DNA from: Nitzschia sp. DOCU1
Lineage: Eukaryota > Bacillariophyta > Bacillariophyceae > Bacillariales > Bacillariaceae
Assembly (NCBI GenBank): GCA_951394045.1
Contig: OX596000.1
Coordinates: forward strand, 186,001 to 250,000
Direction of reading: 5' to 3'
DNA: 64,000 nt
The translations under genes and the position numbers were made by a program. The notes under the pieces are model-generated. The model did not search any database, was not told the DNA's origin, and saw only the letters and a list, made by a program, of their open reading frames with translations. Positions 1 through 63,237 of this stretch are shown here, piece after piece; positions within the stretch are counted from its first letter, which is position 1; each line of letters opens with the position of its first letter.

Positions 1-381
1 CGTCTCTTTAGAGTTGTATGGTAGCTGTGTCATACTTGGAAGGTCCCTGCAGGGACTGAAGTTTTCCCGAAAAAAGCAACATTTGAGCTCGTTCTATGCC
101 CGTAAGGCAACATTTGGAGAACGTTTGCTTCATTGTCGTTAGCTTCGCTACCCCGTTCACTAAATAAAGTTGATGGTATTTAGGCAGCCACGGTTTCACC
201 ATGTTTATGTTCATGATTCTATCGAATTGTACCTCTATTTCGGAAGTCAGTGAAAGAGAACAACAACACACCGGTTGTCATGGATCTGGTAAGGTAATTA
301 GCACTTCCAGAACATATTTACCTGCTTCCGCGCCTAAACATTAGTTGAAACGGCGGCAACCCTATTTATGAAAAGATATTA
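1..381. other. 5' edge, no gene called
   Basis: A short minus-strand open frame (8-271) lies here but has no recognisable domain and no coding-like composition. The right part is presumably the promoter and 5' UTR of the ankyrin gene at 382. Confidence 0.5.
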
Positions 382-1608
382 ATGTTTCAAGGCTTACTTA
401 AGAAAATGACCACTCTGCATAGGGAAGAAGGGAAGATGACCGCGAACACCTACGAGGGGGGCGCTTTCTCATCCTGGAATGGCGGGTTTCTCACCATAGA
501 TCCGTCAAGCGAAAATGTTCCGATACCGAACTTTTCGCAGTACCGAGCGCAACCACTACAGAGCAGTTTGGATCTCACAATTTTTCCTTTTCAGCTACCG
601 AACGATAGCGACCCCGTCGCCACCTTCACCATGTTTGAAGTTTCTCACGATGACTTTATCCCTCTGTTCCTATTCTTGGAAACTAAAGAGTGGGGCACGT
701 GCGTCAAGGAGGCCAAACGAGCCCCGCAGCTGATCGAAGAACGCAAGACGGTCTTTGGTTTCTTCGGAGACAAAGCCGAAACTCGGATCAACGCTCTGCA
801 CCAAGCGGTTGCAATCCCTGACTGTCCCACTTCCGTTATTGAGGCATTTTGCAAATTTAACCAGAAGTGTCTTCAAAGTCTAGAAACGGCGTATCGTCGC
901 ACGGCACTGCATATTGCCTGCATGAAGGGGACCGACTACAAAATCATCGGGACATTGTTGCAGTTTGACGATGACAAGTGCGCTCAGACGCCCGATTCCC
1001 TAGGTCGTTTACCGATTCATTATGCAGCCAAGAATCGCACGACGAATGGCGACAAGACTCTGCGTCTGTTGCTTAGGGCCCACCCAATATCATTGATGGT
1101 TCAAGATAAAGCTGGTTTTTCACCTTTGCACGTGGCCTGTCGTATGGGACAATCCATGGCCATGATTCGTCTCTTTTTGCGAACGGCGCCCGATAGCATT
1201 GTGCTACGTACTTTAAAAAAGTCCTACGCCGTCCACTGTGCCAAGCAGTGTACTGGTGTCTGGTCTAAAGAGCACCATGACGAAATTCTCGATTATCTCA
1301 AGACCGTCACCGAGGTAACTAGAGACACTCTAAAGGTCAGTGGCTATGAAAGCATTTCTTACCTTGGAAAGGAAGACGACTCCATGCGAACATTTATGGA
1401 CGATATTGCTTTGTCCGTGGACAATCCGTCTGTTCGAAGTAGCCGGGCGTCAGGAAGAACCGGTCGTCGAACTGTTCTTGGTGGAGGCAGCAGCGTCCAC
1501 TCGAAGTCGTCCATTCCCATCAAGATTACTATGGATGTGGATTCTACCAGCAAATGCTCAGTCGTCACGGATGAAGAAAATAGCGAAGATTCTTTCGGCG
1601 ATCAATAA
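382..1608 (+). CDS. Ankyrin-repeat protein, 408 aa
   Basis: A single uninterrupted frame from ATG to TAA. Residues about 175-310 carry ankyrin-type repeats: RRTALHIACMKG, then LGRLPIHYAAKN, then AGFSPLHVACRMG, each followed by a helix with an LLL-like or RLFL end. Ankyrin repeats are protein-binding scaffolds, so no enzymatic role is implied. The N-terminal third has no domain I recognise. The C-terminal 80 residues are Ser/Arg-rich (SSRASGRTGRR) and end in an acidic stretch. No signal peptide is evident, so it is probably cytosolic or nuclear. In-frame Met at residues 9 and 19 are alternative starts. The partner is unknown. Confidence 0.85.
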   Translation: MFQGLLKKMTTLHREEGKMTANTYEGGAFSSWNGGFLTIDPSSENVPIPNFSQYRAQPLQSSLDLTIFPFQLPNDSDPVATFTMFEVSHDDFIPLFLFLETKEWGTCVKEAKRAPQLIEERKTVFGFFGDKAETRINALHQAVAIPDCPTSVIEAFCKFNQKCLQSLETAYRRTALHIACMKGTDYKIIGTLLQFDDDKCAQTPDSLGRLPIHYAAKNRTTNGDKTLRLLLRAHPISLMVQDKAGFSPLHVACRMGQSMAMIRLFLRTAPDSIVLRTLKKSYAVHCAKQCTGVWSKEHHDEILDYLKTVTEVTRDTLKVSGYESISYLGKEDDSMRTFMDDIALSVDNPSVRSSRASGRTGRRTVLGGGSSVHSKSSIPIKITMDVDSTSKCSVVTDEENSEDSFGDQ

Positions 1609-2242: not shown

Positions 2243-3472
2243 TTACTCGATTGCAGCAAACGCGGTTGTTTTATCCGTGTCTATCTTGATTTGTTCACCA
2301 CCATGCAAATACGTGGCCGCGGCACGCGTCGTCGTCCTACCCGACCTTTCCATGATTCTTGGTTTCATTGGAATCGAACTGAGAGGGTACACTGGCAACT
2401 CTGGTACTAGCCCCTTGAGTCGTTTCGAGCGGTATACCTCCTTTTTGTGAATGGGAGAAACAAAAGGGATACCATTGACATCGCAAGCTTGATAGCAATA
2501 CGACTTGTGGCCTTGTCCGTCTGGTTCAGAATTATCCAGGCGACGACGTCGAAACCGCAAAACCAACGGAACACCCGTCTGTAACCTCAAAGCTTCCAGC
2601 TTTTTTAAAGCAGCAGGGTCGTCTTGAACATTACAAATGACACCAATCAATGCGCGTAGTGAATTGGCATGGGCCACGACTAGACCCGTTCCTCCCGTCA
2701 TCAATGGAAACGACGACGACGAAAAGCCTTCTTGCACATTTTGTGCTACTCTTTGTTGCGCCGCCTCGTTCAGAACAGGAACCAATCGTTCTTCCAAGAA
2801 TGGGTTTATCCGATGATTAGCCACTTGTTCCAACGACTCACCACGAGGTACAAACTCGTCGCCCCCACAATAATTTGAAAAGGCCCGGAGTTCGTCGAGA
2901 CGCCGTGGATCATTATCTTCTAGCAAAGGCGGAACTGTGTACCAACTGCGCCTCCATTGTTGTACAAGGGTAGGATCATGGCCATACATTCCCTTTTCGA
3001 CATCTTCCTTGACGAGTCCTTGTAGTGCACCATAATGCCGTTCATTCAATCGATAATCTTGAAAATAGCGCCGCGGCGCCAAAGCATTGGGCTTTTCGGA
3101 AAATCCCCACAGACAATAATGGGCTGTCAGTTGAGCACGCTGCAAAATGGAAGTAAAACAGGCATCAATGCCCAGTTCAAACTCGGACACTTGACGCCCC
3201 GTGGCTTGTGCTTCGGCAATGCCTTTTTGCGACAAGGGTACATTTGTCCAGCCCGTAAAGGTTTCCCGACATCCGGGCTCTCCTCCATTCCAAATCGAAT
3301 CACCGTGGCGACAAAGAAGTAAAGTATGGACAAAGGAATCTTCTGGGTATGAGTACGGCAATCCCTTGGAAGACGACGACGACAAGGCCACGACGGACAC
3401 CCGACAGTTGCAAATTGCAGCAAGAAGAAAGAACGTCAAACCCGAAACTCGGAGCCCACGACGTCGTATCAT
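2243..3472 (-). CDS. Phosphoglycerate mutase-like (2,3-bisphosphoglycerate-dependent type), secretory or plastid N-terminus
   Basis: A 409-aa histidine-phosphatase-fold protein. The signature RHGDSIWN at residues 55-62 carries the phospho-accepting His (about H56). GCRETFTGWTNVPLS follows, then LNERHYGALQG with the family's acid/base Glu (about E144). The second catalytic His lies in VVAHANSLRAL (about H268). These are hallmarks of dPGM, which interconverts 3- and 2-phosphoglycerate in glycolysis and gluconeogenesis. The first 30 residues look like a signal peptide with a hydrophobic run (GLTFFLLAAI) ending near VVA, so the enzyme is probably sent to the ER/plastid route or another organelle. 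Two oddities are AHAN in place of the usual AHGN, and a C-terminal extension of about 90 residues that is longer than bacterial dPGM. It is divergent in orientation from the kinase gene at 4180. Confidence 0.88.
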   Translation of the reverse strand: MIRRRGLRVSGLTFFLLAAICNCRVSVVALSSSSSKGLPYSYPEDSFVHTLLLCRHGDSIWNGGEPGCRETFTGWTNVPLSQKGIAEAQATGRQVSEFELGIDACFTSILQRAQLTAHYCLWGFSEKPNALAPRRYFQDYRLNERHYGALQGLVKEDVEKGMYGHDPTLVQQWRRSWYTVPPLLEDNDPRRLDELRAFSNYCGGDEFVPRGESLEQVANHRINPFLEERLVPVLNEAAQQRVAQNVQEGFSSSSFPLMTGGTGLVVAHANSLRALIGVICNVQDDPAALKKLEALRLQTGVPLVLRFRRRRLDNSEPDGQGHKSYCYQACDVNGIPFVSPIHKKEVYRSKRLKGLVPELPVYPLSSIPMKPRIMERSGRTTTRAAATYLHGGEQIKIDTDKTTAFAAIE

Positions 3473-4179
3473 TCTTCTTCAAAAGCTTGATTCTGAAGAT
3501 CAAGTGTGGTAATGTAGGGATTGATAACCACAGGCAACGATGCCTTTCATTCTCATTTTATGGTTTGTCCTGACGACTTCAATGAGAAAGTTGTGCGGGT
3601 GGCTGGAAATTGGAAAGGGAATCGGAATGCAGCAACCTCACGTTTTTTCCCTTTCATTCTAGCCTGATGACGTGTCCCCGAAAATGAGACGCTGGCTGTC
3701 GTTCGATCCCGTTGAAGTTCCTTTGGAAGCAGGCTCATGACCCAAAGAAACAGTCGGATGGATCATTTTGCGCGATACCCGCCATTCGTCGATTGCTGCC
3801 AACTCGGAGTCTCACTTTTGCGTCCGTCTTCTTCGGCACAAAATTCCGCTCTCATGCCGGGAAAGTACACACTGACGTGGTGAGGCATCGAAGGCATGGA
3901 ACAGCAACATGTTTCTTGTCGAGCATATGAAAAGGGATACACAAGGACACAAATGCAACACATCTGGACAAATGGAGAGTTGGCGACGTCAATTCGTTTT
4001 TCCTCTTGTGTAGCACTCCGACTGATGGGTGATCGGCAACCAGCACCGATGGCAAACCAACGCATGTGTGGCCTCACTTTTTCCCTAAAGCACTACAATC
4101 GTCGCAAGTCTCAACTTGAAACGACACACGAACAGGCAAAGATTAAGCTCTCTTGCTTGGGTCGTTCGGAATATTGACA
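3473..4179. other. Shared divergent promoter region
   Basis: About 700 bases separate the ATGs of the mutase-like gene (-) and the P-loop kinase gene (+). No domain-bearing frame is seen on either strand, so this is probably a bidirectional promoter. Confidence 0.45.
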
Positions 4180-5124: not shown

Positions 5125-6221
5125 TGAGTTGCTGCTAGTGCAGCGGCACCATCCATCCTTGTCCGACTCTACCTCTTTCCTTCTTTTCCACCTCACCCAA
5201 GCAAGCATCGCGATTGCTTGCATCTTAAAGAACCACGCGCCAAGAATGTTGTTCTTTAGAAATTTCTGTACTACTATTTAAAATCATGATTTTTTTAATC
5301 GACGCCGCGACATGAAAAGCGCAGCACCAGCAACTGCATGTTGTTATAGCATGCCCATACTTCTTGACTTTGGATCTTGATCCCCGGATGATGTTGGAAA
5401 AGGTAGCGAGAAAGGCCAAAGTCGTAGAACTTGTTAGCTTTTGGGTGCTGGATCAATCACACTTCCTGATGATGGAAAACGGTGAGTGAGCGTCTTTTTA
5501 GCATTTCGAATTAGTAGTAGCTAGTGAGTTCTTGTGGAACCCGGCTTAATTTAACGCCGAGATTGAAAAGCTTGTTTGTTCTCACTATCTACCGACCTTG
5601 CTGTGCTCCCATGAGTGCTGAGCTATCTTTGGTTCATTCGCCATGGTAGTGGCGCCTTCCACTCCTGGAACTATGTACAATCGCCTCGAAATCTGCTTGG
5701 GCGTTTCTTTTGGAGGATCCTTAATTGACATGAGGAACACAACGACAAATAATTGCAAGGTACTAAATCTTGTATTACACTGTGCATTTAGGAAGTTCGA
5801 TAATCTTTCAAGGATGTGGAATGGAAGAACTTTAAATTCTTCTGATGATCTGAAAGGTTATGCCTAGTGGGTCAGTTCCGGCTCCATGATGCCATCGCCA
5901 TGTTCTCTTCGTCTCTTTTCTTCTTTCAAACAATTAGCGTCGTCTACCGGTATTCGGTGTTCGCGATGATAGAGTAGAAAATGAATCTTATCATAGATTA
6001 CTGCCGGAACGCCGGAAGTGCCTTCCCCGGATATCTATTGGGACTATGACTCCTTCTCCCGTGCTTTCTGCCACCAACACCAAGATTTCTTCGAACCAAA
6101 GCAGAGAACAAAAAACAGAGCAGCAGACTAAATTTCCCACATCCTCACGTTTGGTTGTTGATTACGCTTGCCATTCCTCTTTACAACGCTATTGCTACAA
6201 CTGTTAAGAATAACAAGAATC
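5125..6221. other. Intergenic, no gene supported
   Basis: About 1.1 kb between two plus-strand genes. Only short frames without domains are seen (for example 5643-5867). It must contain the kinase 3' UTR and the promoter of the DUF6824 gene. A one-mismatch copy of the CTACCGGTAG palindrome lies at 5944-5953. Confidence 0.45.
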
Positions 6222-7838
6222 ATGTGCAAATGTCCACGTCGTTACAAAAATAAAGGCACTGGTGGCGCCAGAACGAAAGACCAAAGAAGAAGCCGCTCCC
6301 CAGCTCGTCCCACGACGAACGATTCAGTGACGATCGCTGGTCCATTAGAAGACGAAGACTTCGTGTTGATTCCTGGCTTGGTCACGGAGGAAGAAAACGG
6401 CTCGGCATTTCAGTCAAGCCAAGACGGTTCGCCCCATGAAGCAGATCAAGAAGCCCGTTCCGTTCAAGACGAACCTACTACTGAAGATCTCCTGCGCCGA
6501 TCCAAACGAAGGCACCGCCCCCAAGTTTCCTTTTCCGAACGCAACGAGAAATTGGAAAGGTCGAGCTCCCCGATTCTAGGCTCTCGTCGAGTCCGACGCA
6601 AATGCCGAAAGTCTTGTAGTTTGACGGGGTCTCGACGAGACGAATCTAACAAGTTGTTCACTCCTGAATCGTTGGGGCTTCCTGCTGTTTCTTCTTCTTC
6701 AAAGAACATTCCCCATGCACAGCCCCGCCGCCAAGCATGTATGCCTTTTCCAGCATCTGCCCCCTTCCACCACTATGATTCGGCAGTAGCCGCAGCAGCC
6801 GCTCAGGATTGTTGGATCATTCCAAACATTCCCGTTACCTTTTCAACGCTTCCGTTTTTGACCAAAAAGAAGGTGGATCATCGAGCGCCAAAAATTGCCC
6901 CTGGCGAGGCTCCCAGTAACTCATTGCTATCAGAAGTATCGTCCTCGTCATCGTATATGGAGGATTTGAAGCCCGCGGTGGTGGCTCTCCCGCCCATCAA
7001 CAACACCAAAGGCTCGACAAACAAATCCAGCAGTCAAGAGGAGCCCCGTGTTAATAGAGGTGCTGCTGCTGATTCGATTTCTTTCAACAACTACTCCAAG
7101 TGGTACTGTTCGGCCACATCCTTGGGTCCAAACTTTTGTCCCGGTCCTCACGATGTGATCTGTGCTCGCGGCAAACGTACCTATAACCACCCTGGCAATG
7201 AACGGTTTCGATCCCTCGTCCAAGACGCGTACCCGCAGTACAAGAATGCTAAAAGCAAGAGCGAGCGTTCTTCCATTGTGTCTGGCATTGTCAATCAGGT
7301 CCGGCGCTTCATGGTGGCGCCACCAGATGCGCCAGCAAAACAAGATGCAACTAACAAAGCACCTGTTCTTTTGGGTGGTTTTGTAAAGCGGGAAGCCGAT
7401 GGGAACTGGATCGAAGTGGGAGAAACCTTGGCCCGTGAAAAGATTTCCCAAATGATGCGTAATTTCGTCGGTGGATCGGAATACAGTTCCAGTATTGAAC
7501 ATAAGCGTCGAAGGAAGCATGCTCGAAAGGCTAATCCTCAACGTTTGGAGAGATTGCATCAAGTCGTCTTGAGCAATCCAAAAGTCAAAGCAGCAGTCAT
7601 CGAATTGACCAATCATGTCGCTCATCATCATCAACAACAACCGAATCAGAATGAACAAGCATCCATGGCACTGTTCCATTCCTTGACTCAAGACATGTTG
7701 TCCGCCATTAAAGCCGACTCCGAGATGCTAGCTCGATTTTTGCAAACAGAACAAGATCTTCGATTGGAGGAGCAGCAGTCTCCCACCAAGAAACCGCGGC
7801 AACGTGCTTCTTCAGGCGACCATGACAAAGAAGAGTAG
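6222..7838 (+). CDS. DUF6824-domain protein 1 (diatom family)
   Basis: A 538-aa protein from the first ATG; the frame continues upstream to a TTG at 6168, which I reject. The conserved domain spans about residues 306-417. It starts PGPHDVICARGKRTYNHPGN, continues ERFRSLVQDAYPQYKNAKSK, and ends WIEVGETLAREKISQMMRN, the layout of DUF6824, which is very abundant in diatoms. The function of this domain is not established. The N-terminal 300 residues are low complexity, rich in Arg, Ser and Pro, with basic runs suggesting a nuclear protein. A His/Gln-rich stretch follows the domain. The C-terminus (LTQDMLSAIKADSEMLARFL) is also conserved in the paralog at 18681-19913. An antisense open frame of 247 codons overlaps it and is treated as a shadow. 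Confidence 0.85.
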   Translation: MCKCPRRYKNKGTGGARTKDQRRSRSPARPTTNDSVTIAGPLEDEDFVLIPGLVTEEENGSAFQSSQDGSPHEADQEARSVQDEPTTEDLLRRSKRRHRPQVSFSERNEKLERSSSPILGSRRVRRKCRKSCSLTGSRRDESNKLFTPESLGLPAVSSSSKNIPHAQPRRQACMPFPASAPFHHYDSAVAAAAAQDCWIIPNIPVTFSTLPFLTKKKVDHRAPKIAPGEAPSNSLLSEVSSSSSYMEDLKPAVVALPPINNTKGSTNKSSSQEEPRVNRGAAADSISFNNYSKWYCSATSLGPNFCPGPHDVICARGKRTYNHPGNERFRSLVQDAYPQYKNAKSKSERSSIVSGIVNQVRRFMVAPPDAPAKQDATNKAPVLLGGFVKREADGNWIEVGETLAREKISQMMRNFVGGSEYSSSIEHKRRRKHARKANPQRLERLHQVVLSNPKVKAAVIELTNHVAHHHQQQPNQNEQASMALFHSLTQDMLSAIKADSEMLARFLQTEQDLRLEEQQSPTKKPRQRASSGDHDKEE

Positions 7839-18680: not shown

Positions 18681-19913
18681 ATGGGTAGCAGCGTGCAGGT
18701 CATGTGTGCAATCTATGATAGGCTCGATGGTTTAGATCCACTCTCGGCAACGTGGATTTCCCGAGACATTTTGATGCCTGCAGTGCCATCAATCCCCGTC
18801 GGTGTGCAGGATCTGCAAACCAAAATGGAAGAACTGGTAAGTGGTGAATCATTTATGGATTTTCGACCGAAATATGCCTTCTCCTTCTCAAACAATTAAC
18901 AGAGGCATGTTCGTCTTCTGACACAGTTAAATAAGCACCCATCATTTTTAGACATGAGTCGCTTACGACGTCTCCTGTTTCGGAGCATATGCCTCATGAA
19001 GCGAGCGCGCCATGAAGGACTCAAACACAGATCGAAACCCACATTCCATTCACCTCATGGTTGTGGCGCTTCATTCATTCCAACACACAAAATTAACCGA
19101 CCGCCCAAGTTCATGATAGCTACAATGGATAATATGACTACACTCACCAACAACATTCCTTTGGGCTCCCATTATCAGCCTGGCCCGCACGATGTTATTT
19201 GTGGCCGTGGCAATAACGTTTGGAATCATCCAGGCAATCAATACTTTCGTTCCCTGGTGAAATCGATGAGCTCCCGCTATGCACGTGCAACTCGTACCCA
19301 ACGCCAACACATTGTGACAGACATTGTCAATCATATCAAATCCAAAGGCAACATTGGCTTTATTAAACTGGACGAGCAAGACGGTGTTTGGTATGAAGTC
19401 GACGATAACTTGGCACGAGAAAAGTGTGGAAGTATCTTTCGAAACTGCCTGGGGGCAGACTTCAAGTCATCTCATGTTAGCAAGAAACGACGACAAGCAC
19501 AAGTTGCTCGAAAGCTGGGAATGCAATTGCATCAGATGATGAAAAGCCATGACATGGTTGGCGCGCGCATGGAATCACTGCAACAACAAATCACTCGTCT
19601 ACAGGAGAAGCAGCAGCAGCAACAACAAGTAGTACTACGACCGCAAGAAAATCAGCAACAAACGGGTGACGAAGCCCTTCTGGGAACCTTTACTCAAAAC
19701 CTGGTCGTCATGCTCAATTACATCAAGAGCGATGCCGATTTGAAGAAACGATTTCTCCAAGTCGAACAAGAACAACAACAAACAGCAGATGAGCCGTCGT
19801 CGTCGTCTTCTAGCAGTCTTGCTGGCAATGATAATGAAGATGACCAGGAGGACGAAAATGCACCATACGACTACTTCAACGAAGGAATCATTCATGCTGG
19901 TATTTGCCTTTAG
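18681..19913 (+). CDS. DUF6824-domain protein 2, two-exon model, 388 aa
   Basis: Exons are 18681-18836 and 18903-19913. The core frame alone would start at ATG 18954 (319 aa). A consensus donor (CTG|GTAAGT) and acceptor (AATTAACAG) upstream splice in phase 0 and add 69 residues beginning MGSSVQVMCAIYDRLDG, so the longer form is preferred. The domain spans about residues 143-235: PGPHDVICGRGNNVWNHPGN, then YFRSLVKSMSSRYARATRTQ, then WYEVDDNLAREKCGSIFRN. A Gln-rich coiled stretch follows. The tail FTQNLVVMLNYIKSDADLKK aligns with the tail of the paralog at 6222-7838, so the two share more than the domain. The role is unknown; a nuclear location is plausible from basic runs (KKRRQ). Confidence 0.75.
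18837..18902 (+). other. Candidate intron of DUF6824 gene 2 (66 nt)
   Basis: GTAAGT donor and a CAATTAACAG acceptor. Removal keeps frame (phase 0) and avoids a TAA at 18897. Its small size fits other introns in the window (73-187 nt). Confidence 0.6.
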
Positions 19914-32740: not shown

Positions 32741-35700
32741 TTATTTCCCCCCGCCAAATCGAAAGGAGACCGATACCCCTGATCCTGTTGACCGCCGAGA
32801 TTTGGACACGTTTGAGCGCTCCGAGCTGTCCATGATCGTATTGACAGGCGGTGCTGTGTTGCGATTCCAGCTTTCACCATAGGCAGGAGAGTATAAACTG
32901 CCAGTCCCAATAGAATGATGCAATACCTCCTTGACGCCTTCTACCGTACAAGGTTTTGGTAGGTACCCAATGGCGCCATTGTCGAGACAGGTTTGTCGGA
33001 ACGTATCCGACACGTGGGCAGTGACAAAGATCACTTTTGCAAGAACATGGTTGTCGGGACCAATCTTGCGCAAGTTGATTGCTCGGCACGCTTCAATTCC
33101 ATCCATCTTGGGCATTTGCATGTCCATCAGGACCAAATCAAACGCCTCCTTTGCCTCCATTTCGACAGCCTCTACACCATTTCTGGCAATTTTGATAGCG
33201 TCAACACCGAGGCGATTCAGGATTCGTGTCAACACCTTTTGGTTGACGATATTATCCTCGGCAATCAGTACGCGCAAATCTGCCCACGGGGACTTGGATT
33301 CGTCTACATCGAGGGAGAAAAGATTACCTGTGTCCGTCACGTTTCTCAGTTCGAGTGCCAAGCTTCCGAGTTTATGGACAAGAACAGAGGGGAAGGTTTC
33401 CACTAACGAACGCCAGTGCTTCCTTGTCATGCGCTCGATGGAAAATTTCGGGCCAAACGTGACAAGTGCCGCCGGCAAATTTGCCACCAAGAGCTCAAAA
33501 GTTTCAAGGTCGCAAAGATCCTCATGAGATAGGCAAATGTATGCATCTGTATAGGTAGCGAAAGGACCCTCGCGCATGAGCAAAGCCTGGTTGAGATGTC
33601 TCATCGAGTTGAAATGAGAGTATTCGGTGTTGAATTGCTCAAAGTAGGATTCGACTCGCGCCGTGTCGGGATCCAGTCCATCCGCAACAAAGAGAACGGT
33701 CGCTTTTTGTAGACGCGCCGACAGATCCGGTATGCTTGCAGGCTTGTTATTACCGCCGAACGGGAAGTCGACTGTGAATTGAGTCCAACTTCCGTACTCG
33801 CTATCCACAGCGATTGTACCACCCATGGCGTCCACTAGTTTCTTTGTAATGGCCAAACCCAGCCCAGTACCACCGGCCGTATTGCTCAGACCCGTTTCGG
33901 TTTGACGGAACGGTTCAAAGATCTTTCCAAAGTCGCTTGATTCGATGCCCTTTCCAAAGTCCTTGACAGAAAATCGAACAATGGCTGAGGATGGTAGAAC
34001 CGAAACACGAAATTCTACAGTCCCTGCTTCGCCACTGAACTTGATTGCGTTTCCAAGCAAGTTGTACAAGATTTGTTGGATGCGACGGCTGTCGGAATAA
34101 ATGTTTTCCGGGAGTAGCGGGTCGTAGTAGGTGACAACGTTGAGTTTCTTCTCGGTGGTGATATTGCTCGTCTTGATCAGATGAATCACGGCGTTTAGAG
34201 TATCTTGAAGGTTGATCTTCTGGACAAGGACTTGTGCATTTCCAGACTCCAATTTCGAATCTTTTTGGACAAAGAAGAGCGAGGCGTGAGTATAGTCCTT
34301 TTTCGAAAGTCCAAAACTAAGAATGATACTTACAATCAAGAACATCATCCACAATCTGCCGTAGCAGCTTTCCGCTAGAGACAATCATTTCCATAGACTC
34401 CTTCTGCATCGAATTAAGCTCCGTTTCTTCCAATAAACTCGACAAGCCGATAATACAGTTCAATGGTGTTCGAATCTCATGAGACATGCAAGCAAAATGC
34501 TGAAGCTGCATTGCCGAAGCCGAGGCGATCCTGTTGTTTGCTTCTTCCAGATCCTTGTTGAGCGCCTCTAGACGGCTGGTACGCTCTTTCACTTTGAGTT
34601 CCACTTTGAGCGCCAAGTCTAGCTGCTCCGCCGATGGCCGTTCAAGGGGGTCATGCTCAAAACAATCGGCCATGATTTTGGCAATTTTGGCCGGGCAGTG
34701 CAGCGGGATGGGAGGTCGCTTGCGAATGTACGGGTTGCAGATATCCTTGACGACATCTTCAAAGGCTTCTCCAGCATAGGGGGCTCGACCAGAGTAGATT
34801 TCGTACATGACCATACCGTAGGCGTACATGTCCGACGCTGTAGTATTCACGCCATTTTCTTGCAGTAGCTCGGGACTCATCCAGTAGGGGGTACCCACAG
34901 CACCAATCTGCTTCTTTCCCGATAGACCAAAGTCCGTGACTTTAGCGCAAAAGTTTGTGTCGATCAAGACATTTTGCGCTTTCAGGTCGCCATGGACGAC
35001 TTGAGGGGTAGCTGAGTGCAAGAATCGCAATCCTTGAGCAACATCTTGAAGAATGGCCAAGATTTGCTCTGGCTTGAGAATGATGGTACTATCCCGCAGT
35101 ACATCATACAGGGAACCATGAGACATGTATTCCATGATCAGCATGGGTTCATCGTGTCGTGTAGGCATCACAGCACCCATGACTGTCGTAATACAGGGAT
35201 GGCGGAGTCGAGCGAGCTGTCGAATTTCACAGACGAATTCCGCCTTGAGACGGGCATGAGCCTCAGCGTCTTTCAAGGAATCGTCACAACCATGAAGCAA
35301 CTTGTGTTTGACACGCTGAAAGACGTTCCGACTAGCAGCATGATCGGCTTCGAGGTCGGTTCGCTTCCTGGCTTGTTGTTTCAGGTGCTGCTTGAGTTTG
35401 CCGGGGGCCATACTTTGCATGCCCGGGTGCATATTATAACCCGACTCCACATCTTCGTCATCTCCAGCAGTAGAAGATCTCGAGTCGCTTATACGGGAAG
35501 CATCAAAGAGACGCGCGTTCCCTCTTTCCTTTCCACTCGAGGGAATCACTCGCTTGACAGCCACACTTGTACCGCGATAGTCGGCTAGAAGCACCAGACC
35601 AAAAGTACCTCTTCCAATGACCGTGGGAGGATCTCCAAATTCCAATTGAGACGGTTGAACGATCCACAAGGAATCGGATTGCTTGCGTTTGTATTCCACG

Positions 35701-37259
35701 TAAAAATGCACCAATACCCCGACCACTAACAGGACGGACAGAATGATGCATGGCAGAAAGATGGCTAAACTGACACAGCGGCCATTCACCTTGATCGAGT
35801 TCACGCACACCAGCTCATAGGGCAATTCGCAAGGGCGACAGATGCACTGGTATCCTTCTAGACATTCCAGACCGGCCTCCGCACAGCCGTTCTCTACTTC
35901 TGCCTGCGTCTTGCGGTTATAACCGGCGGGGCACGTGATGGCATCGTAAATCTCTTCGGACCGAACACATCTCCAGATGCGTGTCTCGGGTTCCATGCTA
36001 ATGAATCCCGTCGCCTCTTGCATAGTTCGTAAGGGCATGTAGCTCAACGACGTGGTCCATCCGGCGTAGGTACCATTGGTTTGCGCCGTAAAGGCTGACG
36101 CCACCACAGCATGGGTCGCACTGCATTTCAGTGGTCCTTCATAAATATCCCACAAGTCCACGTTTTCACAATAGTCGGTACCATTGACGGCCACACATTC
36201 GCTTAGTGCTTGACCGACCTTGCCGTAATCGGCAATTGACAACAAGGCCCGTTGGACTTCCCGACTCACGGTCGGACTGACATGCGTTAATGCACCCACA
36301 TTCCATTCGGCGTACAGTTCCGTGGAAGATTGAAAAGGAAAGGGCACCCCATCTATTTCCAAGCCAGGTTTGGGTTCAATAATTTTGAATTTGGACATTG
36401 GCACCAAATTGCCATCGGCATCGGTGGTTCGTTCCAGTTGATCCGTTCGGACAAACCCCACATCAAAGTCTCCACTCAAGAGTCCGTTGACTACCGTCCC
36501 TTGATTGCTAGTAAACACTAATTGCTTGGGATCTTGCAAATAGTTCATGCCTCGAGAGATCATTTCATTGAATTGCAGTTGCCCACTACCCAAACCTGAA
36601 ATGGATGCCGCAGCCACCACTTTATTCTTCAAGTCTTTTACAGTTTGAATATCGTCACGTTCCGCCAAGGTGGCAATGACACCCCCAAACTTTTTCAAAT
36701 CATAGACTTGATCACCGACCTCTCGTCGACTCACTTGGCTCACCAACGATTCGGCTTCGAATTCCGATTCAATGCAGCTGTAAGCGGAAGGATTGACGTA
36801 AATGTAGTCAACCGCTTGGGTTTCGACGTCGGTAAATAAGGTAACAAAATCCAGGTATTTCATTTCGAATCGAATGGGGGGATCGAATCGTTTGCCGGCT
36901 GTTTCACTGAGGTAGTCCGAAAAAGTGGCATTGAATTCTAGATAGGCATCTTCAGGGCCACGAATCCCCAGGACACCGATTGTATAAAGGGGCTTGTGAC
37001 CTTTGGCGGGATCAAACTTGATAGGAATTTCACAGTAATAGTCTACATCATCACCCTGCAGCTGCTGTAAATCACGAAATGACGGATACTCTTCATCGTC
37101 TGCTTCTATTGCTGATCGCCAGGAATAATCTTCGACTTTACGGTCCATGTGCTCAGCGGCGCCACAGACAGAAACTAGCTGCAGTAGCAGCAGAGTTCCT
37201 AGAACTAGCAAGGGAGTCGCCGCCGAGGGAAAAGGTAGAATCAGTCTCCTACATGCCAT
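32741..37259 (-). CDS. Fused receptor: PhnD-like binding domain, TM, protein kinase, hybrid histidine kinase-receiver, 1481 aa
   Basis: Exons are 34334-37259 and 32741-34260 (minus), in phase. Signal peptide 1-34. Residues about 80-380 resemble phosphonate-type periplasmic binding proteins: DYIYVNPSAYSCIE, GGVIATLAERDDIQTVKDLK, VVNGLLSGDFDVGFVRTDQL. A Cys-rich segment follows (430-495), then one membrane helix (about 497-520). The protein kinase spans 540-880: GRGTFG (549-554), VAVKR (K569), a long charged insert, HGDLKAQN (756-763), DFG (776-778), GTPYWMSPELL. A short coiled coil leads to a HisKA domain with SHEIRTP (phospho-His H927). The ATPase follows (N1046, GGTGLGL), then a degenerate region (1150-1290), then a receiver whose LMDMQMP carries D1355. 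All motifs needed for both kinases are present. Type: probably a plasma-membrane sensor in which a ligand-binding ectodomain drives two kinase outputs. Ligand and signalling order are unknown. Confidence 0.9.
34261..34333 (-). other. Intron of the fused receptor gene (73 nt)
   Basis: Donor GTAAGT after GTTCTTGATT and acceptor CTTTGTCCAAAAAG, phase 1. Splicing restores VLDYSKLESGN, the canonical continuation of the HisKA helix; without it both frames end. Confidence 0.9.
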
Positions 37260-53993: not shown

Positions 53994-56014
53994 CTAGATT
54001 GTGCTTTGTCTATGAAATGTTTCCTTCGTCTTCGTCTTCTTCTTGTTCTTATTGGCGCCGCCCTTCTTGGACGATTTAGTGGCGAGTGGACATGCCAAAG
54101 TCGACTGGTTCAAGTCCATCACGGACGTTGGACTGCCCCAGCCAATCGAACTCGATCGCGTAGTAGTTCGTCTCATCTGCTGCTCGCTGGGGACTGACAC
54201 ACTACTACTACTTGTGACCGATCGGGCTCGCATCGGGCTCCTGTTCTTCTTGCTCTGTTTGTCTCTCTTCTCTGTACTCGAAGCTTTATCGAGATCCTCG
54301 GCGCCTGTCACTGCGTTGCTTTTCCAGAACCATGACAGTACCGCTGGACTACTGAAATGCTTTTTCGGTTTTGTTGATGTCATCGATGATGCTCTGTCGC
54401 TTGGTGCATCAAGATGGTCAACAATACTGGATTGTTGCTTTTCTCTCTTCTGTGGTGTCTTCTTGTCGTTGGTGGTGCTGGCGGGGTTGCCCTCCTCCGC
54501 TCCTGCCTCAAATACTGATGTCCGGAGAGAAAGCTTGGTGCGGAAGAAGAACGTTTTGGCTTTGCCGGTGGCAAGTGCTGACTTTCTTTGAACTTTGTTA
54601 GCTTCTTGCCGTCCTTCTTCTTCATCTTTGTCACCGATTTCGCATGCTTGTCTTTCTTCTTGGCAGCAATCGGATTCTCCTCCACAGCCTTCGGTCCTCC
54701 CTTTTTGCTTTTCTTCGACGATTTGGCGGCCGGCGTCATATTCGTAGCAGTAGTCGCCACTGAGGAAGAACAAACACTGTTCCTTCTTGTAGGGATCCTA
54801 GCAACACTAGTACTGCTTCTGGGGTGGGCTACCCCATCCACCGGGAGACTGCTCATAGTAGCGCGTCGTTGCGCAGAGCGGGGAGGAGTCTGCAGCTCGC
54901 GCTCATTGTCATCAACACCATATTCGTAGCAAGAAACCCACCCTCCTGCGGGCGACAGTAACACATCTGCCTTCCTTGCTCTTCGTACTCCTAGGGGCGT
55001 ACTGGTGTGTCGGGTATCCCGTGTCAATTCTTTGAAGAGTTTTGAGCCAGCGAAACCGCAATCATGCTGCTGTTGCTCTTTCTTCTTCTTATGATTGTGA
55101 CTCTTTTGGGTGGGAGATGTAGACCGACTCCACGACGACCAAGCTCGAGCCCGAGGGGGGGCAGGTAGATTTGCGTACAAGGGTGAGGTTGAACGCCTGT
55201 CAACTCCTCGGCTTACTGAACGGCCTCTTCGCTCAGCGCTTCGTCGTTCTTTCTCTTCTTCCTCTTCCAGCGCGCGACTTCTGGGTGCTTCGGTCCACCA
55301 CGAATGTGGGACCTGAAGTCCCTCCCTGCTGACCGCCCTCCGCTGCAGCTGACGTTGGTCTGGGAACTCTCGGCTGCCGGGCGGGCCATGCAATGATTGC
55401 GAGAGAGTATCCACTCTCTTATTGGCTGTTCTTGTCTGCGGGCTGCTGCAACCATATGAAAAACTTGTGGTGCGACCACGACAGCGTGGAGGGTTTGTTG
55501 CTTCACCCACCGTTTGTTTTTGGTGATGATGGGCAGTATGGAGGGACGTTCTTCTTGCCTGCTGCTGCTGACGTTGGTCTGGGAACTCTCGGCTGCCGGG
55601 CGGGCCGTGCAATGATTGCGAGAGAGTATCCACTCTCATATTGGCTCTTCTAACTTGCGGGCTGCTACCACCATATGTAAAACTTGTGGTGCGACCACGA
55701 AAGCGAGGAGGGTTTGTTGCTTCGCCCACCGTTTGTTGTTGGCGATCATGGGCAGTATCGAGGGACTTCCTTCTTGCCTGCTGCCGGCACTGTCGTCCTT
55801 GACTCCAGTCGAATCTCTTGACAGGATCCATCAATATATCATATGCTCCACTAATCTTGGTAAAGGTGTCGTGGGCAGATTTCTCGTCTCCTTCCGAGGT
55901 CTGACGATCAGGATGGTACTTCAGAGCGGCTTTTCTGTAGGCTTTCTTAATTGTCGACTCGTCGGCGCCAAATTCCACACCCAGTATCTCATAGGGGTCG
56001 TCCATTTTCTTCAT
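53994..56014 (-). CDS. J-domain protein 1 with long basic tail; frame break near 54515-54583
   Basis: ATG 56014. J domain at residues 5-70: DPYEILGVEFGADESTIKKA, then ALKYHPDRQ with the HPD triad, DTFTKISGAYDILMDPVKRF. After it the protein is Ser/Arg/Pro-rich and basic, ending in runs of Lys. Two open frames carry it: one ends at 54380, the other runs to 53994. Joining needs either a 68-nt intron (54515-54582, GTCAGC donor, weak; acceptor CTCTCCGGACATCAG) or a single-base indel. The intron model gives 650 aa, close to the 638-aa paralog at 60020-61936, whose tail shares SxxGSPTSV and RARSV-like motifs. Hsp40 proteins recruit Hsp70; the tail probably selects clients or location. A 219-bp tandem duplication lies in the tail. 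Confidence 0.72.
54515..54582 (-). other. Candidate intron or frameshift in J-domain gene 1
   Basis: The 68-nt segment has acceptor-like TTTCTCTCCGGACATCAG but a poor GTCAGC donor. Removing it keeps frame with L congruent to 2 mod 3. Confidence 0.35.
55349..55790 (-). repeat. 219-bp tandem duplication inside J-domain gene 1
   Basis: GACGTTGGTCTGGGAACTCT occurs at 55351 and 55570 (offset 219 bp). Encoded copies begin RKSLDTAHDRQQQTVGEATN and RTSLHTAHHHQKQTVGEATN and end LHGPPGSREFPDQRQ. Confidence 0.85.
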
Positions 56015-56233
56015 CGTGATGTTGTTGCTACTTGGTTTGGAGTTGTAACAACAAGAGAATGTTATGCTGCTATCGGCGAGCCGTGTAAAACAATCGTGTG
56101 GTGAACCAATGCTCCGAAAATGAAAAAAGTACTTTCATCTCCTCTTAGGGCAAAGGCGACTTCAACGCGGTCCCTGACGATCAGCAACCCTTCAGGATTA
56201 GTGATTCTCTACCATGCACCTTCCCTGTTTCGC

Positions 56234-60019: not shown

Positions 60020-61936
60020 CTACGCTGGTGTTCCCCGCGATGGTCGTCGCCCCCGCTTTTCCATGGGATTGCGATGGTCGATAAAGACTTGATCACGCTT
60101 GCCTCGTTTGGGCGAGGCCACATAGCTGTACGAAGTGTCCGCACAATCGTTCCAATCGGTAACCGAGGTGGGACTTCCAGCGCTGGATGTAGAACGTGTC
60201 GATTTGCTTTTGAACAAGGAAAAGCGGCGAGACGGCGCTTGTGACGATGATGATTGGACAAGATTAGGTGGCGGACCAGACACGGATTTGGACCGGCGGG
60301 GTTTAGGAGACGACGACGTAGTGGATGCAACTTCACTTCGACGCTTTTTGAGTTGCTTGCCAGTTGTAGTCGTTGTGGTGGCATTGTCGTCGGCTGGGTT
60401 GTCCGAAATTCTGCGGAACCACATGACAGCGGATTTGGCTCGTTTGGGAGTAGTAGAGGTGGTAACTGTCGTACCCCCGGAACAGGATGCGTCGTCTTTG
60501 GCTTCTTTTTTCTTTTTCTTTTTGTCCTTTTTCGCCTTTTTCTCCTCCTTGTCTTTTCTTTCTTTTTCCTTCTTTTCCTTTTTCGTCTTGGTCGTTGCTG
60601 CAGATTTTGTCGATTTTCGAGTCCCCGTGGTATTTCGGCTCGAGACACTGGCAGCACCCGATAGACTTCCCGATGCGGATCCCCGAGGCAAACTCTTGCT
60701 ACGACGTTGTTGCAAAAATGCCGCAAGTGGTGGAGCCTCACCTCGTGATGACGACACCACTGACGTGACATCGGATTTTCGTCCTCGTCGAACGGGTTTG
60801 CTCGTCGTGCGAGTATCTCGTGACAATTCTGCCAGTGCACCGCCCAAGCCCATGAACGAACGAGCCTTGGTAGGTGGTGGTAATTGAGAAATATCTTGGG
60901 TTCGTCGTTGGGAAGCTGCCCGTGGGGATGAGGATCGTGGTCCAGCATCTCGACTCACGGAACGAGAACGACGTGCTGCTGGCATAGTAGATGGCGCAGC
61001 TGCCGATGCTGCAGGTTGTGTCGGCACCGAACGATCGCGACTGACAGATCTGGCTCGATTCTGAATCGGAGTGGTGGAACGAGAGGATCGAGAGGCTGCC
61101 GATGGCACAAACGACGACGTTGACGCTCTACGACTGGGCTGCTCTGACTGGGGCTGCTTGTCGGCAAAGATGCGACTGGAAGCATTTTGAACCGTGGAAG
61201 AGTTGGGTCGTAAATCTTCCCTCAGATTGTTGGTGGAGTAAGGAGCATAACTGGAAGCTCGACGTGGTTGTGTGGGTTGTCGGTCGGCAAAGATTCTGCT
61301 ACTGCTGGGCGTTTGGGGTGATCGCAGATTTTCCTTAGAATTTGGAGCAAAACTGTAAGACCTGGTGGAAGAGGGAATGTTGTCGGCTCGTTTCGGATTC
61401 GGACTGGGGCCGGCACTGAATCGATCGGAAGAAAAACTATTGGCCCGACGAAAGGGAGGAGGATCCACTTTTTTACTACCAGACGCAGCAGCAGCAGCCC
61501 CCCCACCAGTGGACGACTTTTTGGATCGAATATTGGCGTTGTCATCGTCGTCATCAAAGGGCGGTGGGGGTGGAGCCTGCTTCTTGGGTGCTGTTGGCTT
61601 CCAGGTAGTCGACGCCGTCGGCCGGGCAGGAGCGGATTGTGGACAAGTGGGGGCGGTGGCCTTCTTTTTAGGTCCTGGCGCGGGAGTGGCCGGGACACCT
61701 GCCATTTTGGCAGCGTTGGCTTGCTTCCAGTCATAACGCTTGACAGGATCCGTCAAGATATCGTATGCTCCACTAATTTTGGCAAACGTATCATGGGCAG
61801 ATTCTTTGTCTTCTTCGGTCGTTTGACGATCTGGATGGAACTTCAGAGCGGCCTTGCGGTACGCCTTCTTAATCGTCGTTTCATCGGCGTCATACTCCAC
61901 GCCCAGAACCTGATAGGGATCATCACCTTTCTCCAT
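60020..61936 (-). CDS. J-domain protein 2 with long basic disordered tail, 638 aa
   Basis: The open frame runs to 62395, but the J domain itself begins at ATG 61936 (MEKGDDPYQVLGVEYDADET). The J domain has ALKFHPDRQTTEED with HPD and ISGAYDILTDPVKRYDWKQA, nearly the same as in the paralog at 53994. Residues 75-300 are Pro/Ser/Arg-rich with SRIFADRQP and SRIFADKQP repeats. Tail region 300-520 has RSVSRD-like Arg/Ser repeats, then a strongly Lys-rich segment (KKEKKEKERKDKEEKKAKKD). The end resembles the paralog. A nuclear or RNA-associated Hsp40 is plausible from Arg/Ser repeats, but this is inference. Confidence 0.85.
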   Translation of the reverse strand: MEKGDDPYQVLGVEYDADETTIKKAYRKAALKFHPDRQTTEEDKESAHDTFAKISGAYDILTDPVKRYDWKQANAAKMAGVPATPAPGPKKKATAPTCPQSAPARPTASTTWKPTAPKKQAPPPPPFDDDDDNANIRSKKSSTGGGAAAAASGSKKVDPPPFRRANSFSSDRFSAGPSPNPKRADNIPSSTRSYSFAPNSKENLRSPQTPSSSRIFADRQPTQPRRASSYAPYSTNNLREDLRPNSSTVQNASSRIFADKQPQSEQPSRRASTSSFVPSAASRSSRSTTPIQNRARSVSRDRSVPTQPAASAAAPSTMPAARRSRSVSRDAGPRSSSPRAASQRRTQDISQLPPPTKARSFMGLGGALAELSRDTRTTSKPVRRGRKSDVTSVVSSSRGEAPPLAAFLQQRRSKSLPRGSASGSLSGAASVSSRNTTGTRKSTKSAATTKTKKEKKEKERKDKEEKKAKKDKKKKKKEAKDDASCSGGTTVTTSTTPKRAKSAVMWFRRISDNPADDNATTTTTTGKQLKKRRSEVASTTSSSPKPRRSKSVSGPPPNLVQSSSSQAPSRRFSLFKSKSTRSTSSAGSPTSVTDWNDCADTSYSYVASPKRGKRDQVFIDHRNPMEKRGRRPSRGTPA

Positions 61937-63237
61937 TGTCGTCGTAGGAGTCTGAAGTTGTTTGTTGTTCTGATGATTCAGGGGGCTTCCAGCAACTGGT
62001 ATGGTCGACGAAAACGAGCGTTCTGAAACGGCGTGAAAAGATTGCCAGTCTGCACAGTTAAATCTGCATGCAGGCACACATCTCGCTATGTATGCATTGC
62101 CCACCACCGAGGCTCTCCTCGTTCTTATTCGTGGGTTCTCGACGGCATTGGATGGAGTTGCATTTCTAACCTTTTTATTAGTGCCTTGAAGTCTAATTGT
62201 TTCGGAGGGCTTAAAGAGTAAAAGACCATTTGGTCCCCCGTTGTCTTGGAATGGAATATAATCATACCTGCCAGAGGAGAATTCGTGATTGCTAACTATT
62301 GCCTCGGCATCCAAAGCATGAATCGCTGGTTTTTGGGCATATATCATTCGACATAAAGGGTTACCCGTATTCTTGCCATCCGAACGCAACAGCACCTTCG
62401 GAGCTGCTGTCAGCTGACGTGTTGTGACCGAGCTCGCGCTCAGCCTCTTAGACCCTCTAGCTCAGTGTGGTTATGAGTATGCATCGTAGATACATGCTCA
62501 CCGTACAAAAGAAAGCGCAGGACAGCGAGGTTCACGACAAAAACAAAATGAACACGGCGCCTCTTCAACTTCAAGGTTTCTATCAGAAAACTGAAAATGT
62601 CTCAGCTACTAATATCGGCAGCCTGGTTATGGACAGTCTGGCCTTTGCTCTGGTCCCCCTTTTGGCCCTGGATCGTTTTGGGGGCGGTGGGACCAGACGA
62701 TCGGGACCGTTTTCATCTTGTATGATAGCTATCCCGGAGATCTCGGAACATCGCCATGAAAGCTTGATCGGGTACTATCATATAAAATCACCAACTGCGG
62801 AAGTAAATCATAATACAGAACCGTTTCCGGCTACAGAATTGTATGGAAACAAATTAGGGAGCTCAGAGGGTGCTACCAGACAAGAACGACCTTACGACTA
62901 AGCGTTTCCCTGTTGTCGAGGTTATTTCTCTTGGTCCTTTTTATGGGGTATCTCATTGGAATTGAACTACAACGTTACGATGATTTCCCAGAATAGTCTT
63001 TTCATTAGTTTACATCCCTGTTGTATCGTTGTTCTTACTGAAGAGGTGGATCCTGGTAATACTACAGCAGGAACCCGTCGTTATAGGTAGACCGACCGCA
63101 TAATATAATAGGCGCTACCTGCCCCATGACTTTTTTCATCAATGCTCACTCTTGCCAAAACGTGACGTTACCGCAAGAGAATGATTGGATTCCCAGTCAG
63201 ACAATCACGCCGCCCCAAGAAAAAGGAAGTGTTCGCA
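61937..63237. other. Upstream of J-domain gene 2; no gene supported
   Basis: About 1.3 kb. A plus-strand frame 62473-62901 (GTG start at 62467) has no domain or signal. The upstream extension of the J-domain frame (61937-62395) is likely leader or non-coding. Nothing else is called. Confidence 0.45.

Follow-up and report, generated by a model that had tools for sequence, protein, structure and literature searches.

The window analysed here is a stretch of 64,000 nucleotides from the diatom Nitzschia sp. DOCU1 (GCA_951394045.1, contig OX596000.1, positions 186,001 to 250,000), and on its minus strand it carries a gene that extends from ATG to stop over 32741..37259. The gene is composed of exon 1 (34334-37259; 2926 nt) and exon 2 (32741-34260; 1520 nt), separated within codon 976 by a 73-nt intron, GTAAGT...AAAAAG (34261..34333), and the spliced product has 1481 codons and a stop. 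In this protein (hereafter, the query), the motifs of two different kinases are found: VAVK (566), HGDLKAQN (756, with D758) and DFG (776) belong to a protein kinase, and SHEIRTP (926, with H927) and GGTGLGL (1105) to a histidine kinase (HK), which is followed by the receiver motif LMDMQMP (1353, with D1355). Five Pfam domains exceeded their curated cut-offs: Phosphonate-bd (PF12974; 108-344, 2.3e-17), PK_Tyr_Ser-Thr (666-880, 3.7e-49), HisKA (919-982, 1.2e-17), HATPase_c (1032-1143, 4.5e-26) and Response_reg (1306-1420, 2.5e-23). An earlier reading made from the letters of the window (the sequence-only reading) had proposed one spliced gene over the 73-nt intron and a 1481-aa protein with these residues, and had asked for a domain search; the gene and the residues were borne out at the positions given, and all of the expected domains lie on one protein.

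When the DNA is left unspliced, two separate open reading frames are seen, as would be expected of two adjacent genes or of an assembly artefact. A scan of 34200-34400 found 24 GT-AG pairs that keep a frame of more than 1300 aa. The consensus donor GTAAGT occurs in three of these pairs, and VLDYSKLESGN is restored by the 73-nt pair only. The junction was also compared among 36 relatives carrying both a protein kinase and an HK. In eight of them (P0001, P0002, P0004, P0008, P0009, P0013, P0016 and P0039), VLDCK appears at the same codon, as results when an unspliced frame is read on into the same donor; 27 read [VI]LD[YF][SN]K, and P0006 lacks the landmark. The 27 include the MMETSP entries P0015 and P0020, which we take to be transcriptome sequences and which each combine the five types of Pfam domain in a single chain. 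Because eight relatives run into the same donor and 27, the two MMETSP entries included, read through the junction, the intron is considered to be common to the relatives and to be removed. The search of relatives that had been suggested gave the same domain order within one protein in several independent sources. Together with the identical intron start, this rules out two genes or an artefact, a reading whose probability is close to nil, and the fused receptor is confirmed as real and common to relatives.

The domains are arranged as follows, all on the minus strand. The start codon and a signal-peptide-like stretch (residues 1-33; 37161..37259) were recognized by a hydrophobicity scan, which gave one further peak, of 3.0, at about residues 495-517 (35709..35777), in agreement with the single membrane helix proposed in the sequence-only reading. 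The ectodomain (108-344; 36228..36938) is a type II periplasmic binding protein (PBP) that resembles the TtrS sensor, and a cysteine-rich stalk (379-492; 35784..36125), delimited by conserved Cys columns, links it to the membrane. On the other side of the membrane helix lie a tyrosine kinase-like (TKL-like) protein kinase (546-880; 34620..35624), the HisKA or dimerization and histidine phosphotransfer (DHp) domain (919-982; 34241..34505), which is split by the intron and has H927 at 34479-34481, HATPase_c (1032-1143; 33758..34093) with the N-box NLLGNAIKF and GGTGLGL, and a receiver (1306-1420; 32927..33271) with the phospho-acceptor D1355 and K1411. Thus, a HisKA with its His, a HATPase_c with N and G boxes and a receiver Asp occur in one chain, as in a hybrid HK. 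The segment of about 160 residues between HATPase_c and the receiver (1144-1302; 33281-33757) had no Pfam match; by eye, it is perhaps a degenerate receiver.

What the ectodomain resembles was examined by models, folds and bacterial contexts. In an NCBIfam scan of the ectodomain alone, the TtrS sensor HK model (NF040750) was the top match at 1.5e-14, with 53.4 of 750 bits, which does not reach the cut-off, as against 2.3e-5 for the transport model TIGR01098, whose 24 of 112.05 bits lie far under its cut-off; no match of the query to TIGR03431 was listed at E 0.1. When the ectodomain sequence alone was searched against the PDB, no informative match appeared (best E 0.23). The AlphaFold2 model of the ectodomain has a mean predicted local distance difference test score (pLDDT) of 92.2, and its best PDB folds are PtxB, XAC2383, ArrX, AioX and PhnD, among which are phosphite-, phosphonate- and arsenate-binding proteins; PtxB and PhnD have 9-17% identity to it. 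Unlike the PhnD/PtxB transport proteins, which are free periplasmic components of an ATP-binding cassette importer, the domain forms part of one chain with a membrane helix and kinases. In the bacterial relatives examined, it occurs within sensors or next to chemoreceptor genes (neighbour frames were scanned in part, and transport genes may lie nearby), and the signature GFVRTDQLE is common to the ectodomain and the binding proteins encoded next to chemoreceptor genes. Genome contigs were scanned with two peptide patterns from the diatom family, and 7 of the 62 stretches with a pattern matched, a result that is biased because the patterns were chosen from that family; a plasmid search, of which 3 of 16 records were examined, is free of this pattern bias. 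The phage records searched gave no match.

The description of the ectodomain as PhnD-type therefore stands in so far as PF12974 is the Pfam match, while the nearest curated model is that of the TtrS sensor; the accompanying statement that such a domain usually serves phosphonate uptake calls for revision, the bacterial relatives examined being sensors or neighbours of chemoreceptor genes. Phosphonate uptake was accordingly rejected as the nearest source of the ectodomain, since the TtrS model and the sensor context fit better, and was kept only as a weak rival with respect to the ligand. A receptor for phosphate or phosphonate as nutrients, following the Pfam name, has in its favor that PF12974 is over the cut-off and that binding proteins for such anions are among the best folds. 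The low score of TIGR01098, lower also than that of TtrS, and the shared GFVRTDQLE speak against it, and PhnD-like domains serve different anions: PMC5700983 describes phosphite, and PMC5408782 gives tetrathionate as a likely ligand for a PhnD-like sensor domain. We consider this nutrient receptor improbable.

The ectodomain was then used to define a family. Only the 7,996 candidates that had the most words in common with it were scored, and these gave 117 proteins, whose output classes were taken from precomputed Pfam lists. A guanylate cyclase was found in 42 and HisKA in 23, and the protein kinase is present in all 65. The rest are two HKs without a protein kinase (P0027 and P0033), one G protein-coupled receptor (GPCR; P0056), one PAS-GGDEF-EAL protein (P0117, which is bacterial as judged by its domains) and 48 fragments or proteins with no called output. 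All of the matches with a readable organism name are from what we take to be diatoms. P0039 was classed as an HK-type member even though PF12974 is absent from its precomputed list. In the Nitzschia sp. DOCU1 genome (52 Mb, 63 contigs), PF12974 was found at ten places, and only the query has an HK there (1/10). Seven genes of the PBP-kinase-cyclase type (L009-L015) were identified, and L017 is a weaker eighth spread over three frames; in L012-L015, the adjacent frame encodes the ectodomain, an intron presumably separating it from the rest. Hence, the query is not an isolated oddity. The cyclase domain PF00211, present in these paralogues, was absent from the query in the Pfam search. When a family profile holding 67 of the 117 matches, full-length cyclase-type relatives included, was compared with the PDB, atrial natriuretic peptide receptor 1 was the best, with one match spanning kinase and cyclase; a second alignment held 57 of the 117, and the search with a third was discarded, being swamped by the GGDEF-EAL part of P0117. 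Judged from domain content, the commonest form of the diatom receptor family ends in a guanylate cyclase and is built like the natriuretic peptide receptor, and the query carries in the cyclase's place a hybrid HK with a putative ERT signalling helix of its own.

Several further arrangements were observed in this family and its surroundings. Of the PBP-kinase-cyclase genes, five are located within the initial 370 kb of contig C2 (G000:C2:20000-370000), where HK fragments (45-47 kb) and an HK bearing three receivers (79-83 kb) also occur. The last of the ten PF12974 places is one 877-aa frame (L016:2624-5254; G000:C9) in which a flavin monooxygenase comes after part of the domain. Another gene of the kinase-cyclase type, which occupies two overlapping frames (G000:C13:1545776-1547391; L044:4777-6392), has upstream of it a frame with only a weak PAN match below the cut-off and with no PF12974. 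In P0056, a metagenomic protein of 1028 aa, this ectodomain is joined to the seven-helix domain of a class C GPCR (PF00003, 5.6e-34); class C receptors usually carry a type I binding protein, and a type II one is present instead. In P0027 and P0033, the ectodomain is placed directly on a distant HEVRNP-type HK (27% to that of the query) with receivers, two of them in P0033, and without a protein kinase. Close relatives of this HK exist in the own genome (C3:1052824-1054170 and C5:3303988-3305247), apart from the ectodomain matches.

The origin of the fusion was examined with trees of the separate domains. The kinase tree was built from 24 rows of the HK type and 50 of the cyclase type; of the latter, 42 came from the ectodomain search and 8 are own-genome frames. 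All 24 HK-type kinases form one clade in it with support 100/100, corresponding to a single output change. A second kinase tree drew on 24 of these 50 rows of the cyclase type together with 25 PBP-kinase-HK rows and 12 kinase-HK rows with other ectodomains, and the ectodomain tree held 75 of 125 sequences, namely those other than fragments with no called output (L016 and L017 are outside the set). The HK search list comprised the best 120 of 7966 matches, so further kinase-HK proteins may exist. In the HK tree of 51 chosen rows, 14 of the 25 PBP-kinase-HK rows among them, the 26 kinase-HK rows form one clade (99/92) among 17 HKs without a protein kinase, of which nine list a GAF domain and five are named as diatom. 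The closest other HK in the own genome, searched with exon 2, is also a GAF-HK-receiver protein. The 12 kinase-HK proteins whose ectodomains are of other kinds are placed within the PBP-kinase-HK group; by this placement, the kinase-HK engine was later given other ectodomains. Among these best matches, the kinase-HK-receiver engine was seen under FG-GAP propeller repeats (P0119, P0124 and P0128) and under ectodomains without a Pfam match (P0120, P0122, P0126 and P0129).

The connection between the two kinases was examined in the AlphaFold2 model of residues 514-975 (mean pLDDT 84.7). One continuous helix is predicted over residues 877-943 (34431..34631), extending from the last helix of the protein kinase through ERT (892-894) into the DHp domain and past H927. 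In PMC1592074, ERT is the signature of a signalling helix known in HKs and in receptor cyclases, in the latter after an inactive kinase. A signalling helix would be a parallel coiled coil with a central ERT in front of a catalytic domain, and of this the ERT and the continuous predicted helix are seen in the query. The distance from ERT to the His is exactly 35 residues in 20 of the 24 PBP-kinase-HK rows with the landmark and in 13 of the 17 HKs without a protein kinase; anywhere in the linker before the cyclase, it was found in 1 of 41 cyclase-type rows. Because the spacing is common to the kinase-less HKs and ERT is nearly absent before the cyclase, the HK seems to have brought its own signalling helix. 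A diatom hybrid kinase, probably of the GAF type, thus probably replaced the cyclase behind the kinase domain, signalling helix included. As a possible relay partner, a 104-aa histidine phosphotransfer (HPt)-like frame with the motif HVIKGAASNL was found in the genome (27.1 bits; cut-off 24.6). The genome also has 51 receiver matches, many in repeats: receiver frames that resemble one another recur every ~16-21 kb at G000:C11:43877-191086 and on other contigs. Most of them are 160 aa long, several score identically, and they are perhaps a large tandem or mobile repeat.

The protein kinase itself was assigned to the TKL group from its nearest PDB folds, of which CTR1 is the closest and TNNI3K another; its N-lobe has a variable insert at about residues 578-665. 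In the family alignment, the catalytic K, E, D and N (K569, E678, D758 and N763), DFG (D776), the APE Glu and the helix F Asp are all present in the query. The full set is found in 67 of the 74 aligned members (query included): 20 of the 24 HK-type members (query included) and 47 of the 50 cyclase-type members, the output classes for these counts having been assigned by hand from the ectodomain-search list. The seven exceptions are two gaps, one APE Glu changed to Asp (P0004) and four altered DFGs. Three of the last four are the HK-type members P0015-P0017 (Cylindrotheca and a Bacillariaceae metagenome-assembled genome), which have NVS, NVG or NIS for DFG. Their kinase identity to the query is 51-54% as against 64% for P0012, while the ectodomain identity is 60-61% in all four; HATPase (65-66% vs 72%) and receiver (56-59% vs 64%) show a smaller drop. 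The branch leading to them is 0.79-0.95 in the kinase trees, as compared with 0.32 in the ectodomain tree and 0.33 in the HK tree (two of the three). The motifs of the HK and the receiver are kept. Because the DFG Asp was lost and the HK motifs were kept, normal kinase catalysis seems dispensable in this lineage, where the kinase would work without it or not at all. The claim that intact active sites argue against a pseudokinase thus holds for the query, but these three relatives have lost the DFG Asp.

On balance, we regard the query as probably a single-pass, presumably dimeric receptor hybrid HK for which a receptor guanylate cyclase of diatoms served as the chassis. For this receptor we infer ligand gating, dimerization, a relay and kinase activity of the following kind. 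A small ligand would close the TtrS-like type II ectodomain, and the movement would run through the Cys-rich stalk and the membrane helix into the TKL-like kinase domain, whose last helix would continue as the ERT signalling helix into the DHp helix. This would switch the autophosphorylation of H927; D1355 in the protein's own receiver would accept the phosphoryl group, and an HPt protein would carry it on to a response regulator. In this scheme, the protein kinase would act mainly as a coupler, like the kinase-homology domain of the natriuretic-peptide receptors; it keeps its catalytic residues in the lineage of the query and may phosphorylate substrates of its own.

Several points weigh against this view of the receptor and of its origin. 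ERT is absent in 4 of the 24 PBP-kinase-HK rows and in all 12 kinase-HK proteins with other ectodomains, and the HPt match barely exceeds its cut-off. In the ectodomain tree, the HK rows are not one clade, five cyclase rows and the two HK rows without a protein kinase being placed among them (support 90/80), so that a second fusion or an exchange may be part of the history. A long-branch warning applies to the HK tree, at its bacterial end. Dimerization is presumed, and the helix was taken from a monomer model. Finally, the full catalytic set in 47 of 50 and 20 of 24 members exceeds what a pure coupler needs. This last point bears on how the kinase works. A dual-output receptor, in which the same ligand switches the His-Asp relay and also a Ser/Thr/Tyr-type kinase that is active on substrates of its own, would agree with those counts, with the examined catalytic positions of the query, all intact, and with the kinase clade going together with the HK output; P0015-P0017, in which the kinase lacks DFG and is the most diverged domain while the HK and receiver motifs are retained, fit it poorly, and we hold it to be possible but doubtful. 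That the kinase has in practice no catalytic activity and serves only as an allosteric domain that binds ATP, as it does in the animal receptor cyclases, is suggested by its place between the membrane and the signalling helix, as in the natriuretic-peptide receptors, and by the loss of DFG in one lineage. However, the catalytic residues are intact in most aligned members, in contrast to the animal receptors, whose kinase is described in PMC1592074 as appearing inactive, and such a dead kinase is rather unlikely. A wider version, again tentative, is a plug-and-socket diatom family: one bacterial-type sensor would drive a cyclase or a histidine relay, or a seven-helix GPCR core in the case of one metagenomic protein, and an active TKL kinase in the path would turn one ligand event into both Ser/Thr/Tyr and His-Asp phosphorylation, by phosphorylating the relay or by gating the signalling helix.

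The coupler reading preferred here can be set beside known systems. Like the atrial natriuretic peptide receptor-type cyclases, the query has a binding-protein ectodomain, one membrane helix, a kinase, a helical linker and an output domain in this order. Unlike them, it has no cyclase catalytic domain, its output being a hybrid HK, its ectodomain is of type II whereas theirs is a type I binding protein, and its kinase residues are intact. The TtrS/ThsS-type sensors (PMC5408782) share the PhnD-like ectodomain with an HK, and TtrS is the best curated ectodomain model; but the bacterial types examined list no protein kinase among the NCBIfam matches shown, the query falls far short of the full TtrS score (53 of 750 bits), and its HK groups with diatom hybrid kinases. 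The fungal group X dual hybrid HKs combine, as the query does, a protein-kinase-related domain, an HK and a receiver in one protein. This Ser/Thr-kinase-related domain belongs to group X, whose members include Mak2/Mak3 and Chk1, and a GAF domain lies between the two kinases. Unlike group X, the query had no match to GAF in the Pfam search of the spliced protein, and it has an extracellular binding protein, a membrane helix and a kinase of the receptor-cyclase lineage. PMC6944256 lists group X HKs for fungi, algae and amoebae, with the Ser/Thr-kinase-related domain in a table key. The query also resembles CTR1 and ETR1, in which a TKL kinase of the CTR1 type stands alongside an HK-type receptor, but it is one polypeptide with a different sensor. 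CTR1 and ETR1 are partners in ethylene signalling.

Elsewhere in the window, the frames at 349-1605 (+), 2246-3478 (-), 54383-56134 (-) and 60023-62461 (-) encode ankyrin repeats, a histidine phosphatase family protein and two DnaJ proteins, and the frames at 6162-7835 (+) and 18900-19910 (+) both encode DUF6824.

Receptor cyclases with a kinase domain, PhnD-like sensor HKs and kinase-HK fusions in fungi are already known. No description of the domain combination of the query, or of an output swap on one chassis, was found in searches of the open-licence PMC literature. The family presents a natural output swap, in which the same kind of sensor, a membrane helix and a kinase lead to a cyclase in 42 of the 117 proteins and to an HK in 23. 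Since intact and DFG-less kinases exist on the same chassis, it becomes testable whether receptor cyclases use their kinase domain as a passive coupler, a long-standing question. In Seminavis, the expression of 45 receptor-type cyclase genes is altered by quorum-sensing-related compounds (PMC7296067) and that of 17 cyclase-domain genes by a sex pheromone (PMC8027222), the passages concerned not stating the ectodomain type. The proteins described here represent a candidate receptor class for the responses of diatoms to dissolved small molecules.

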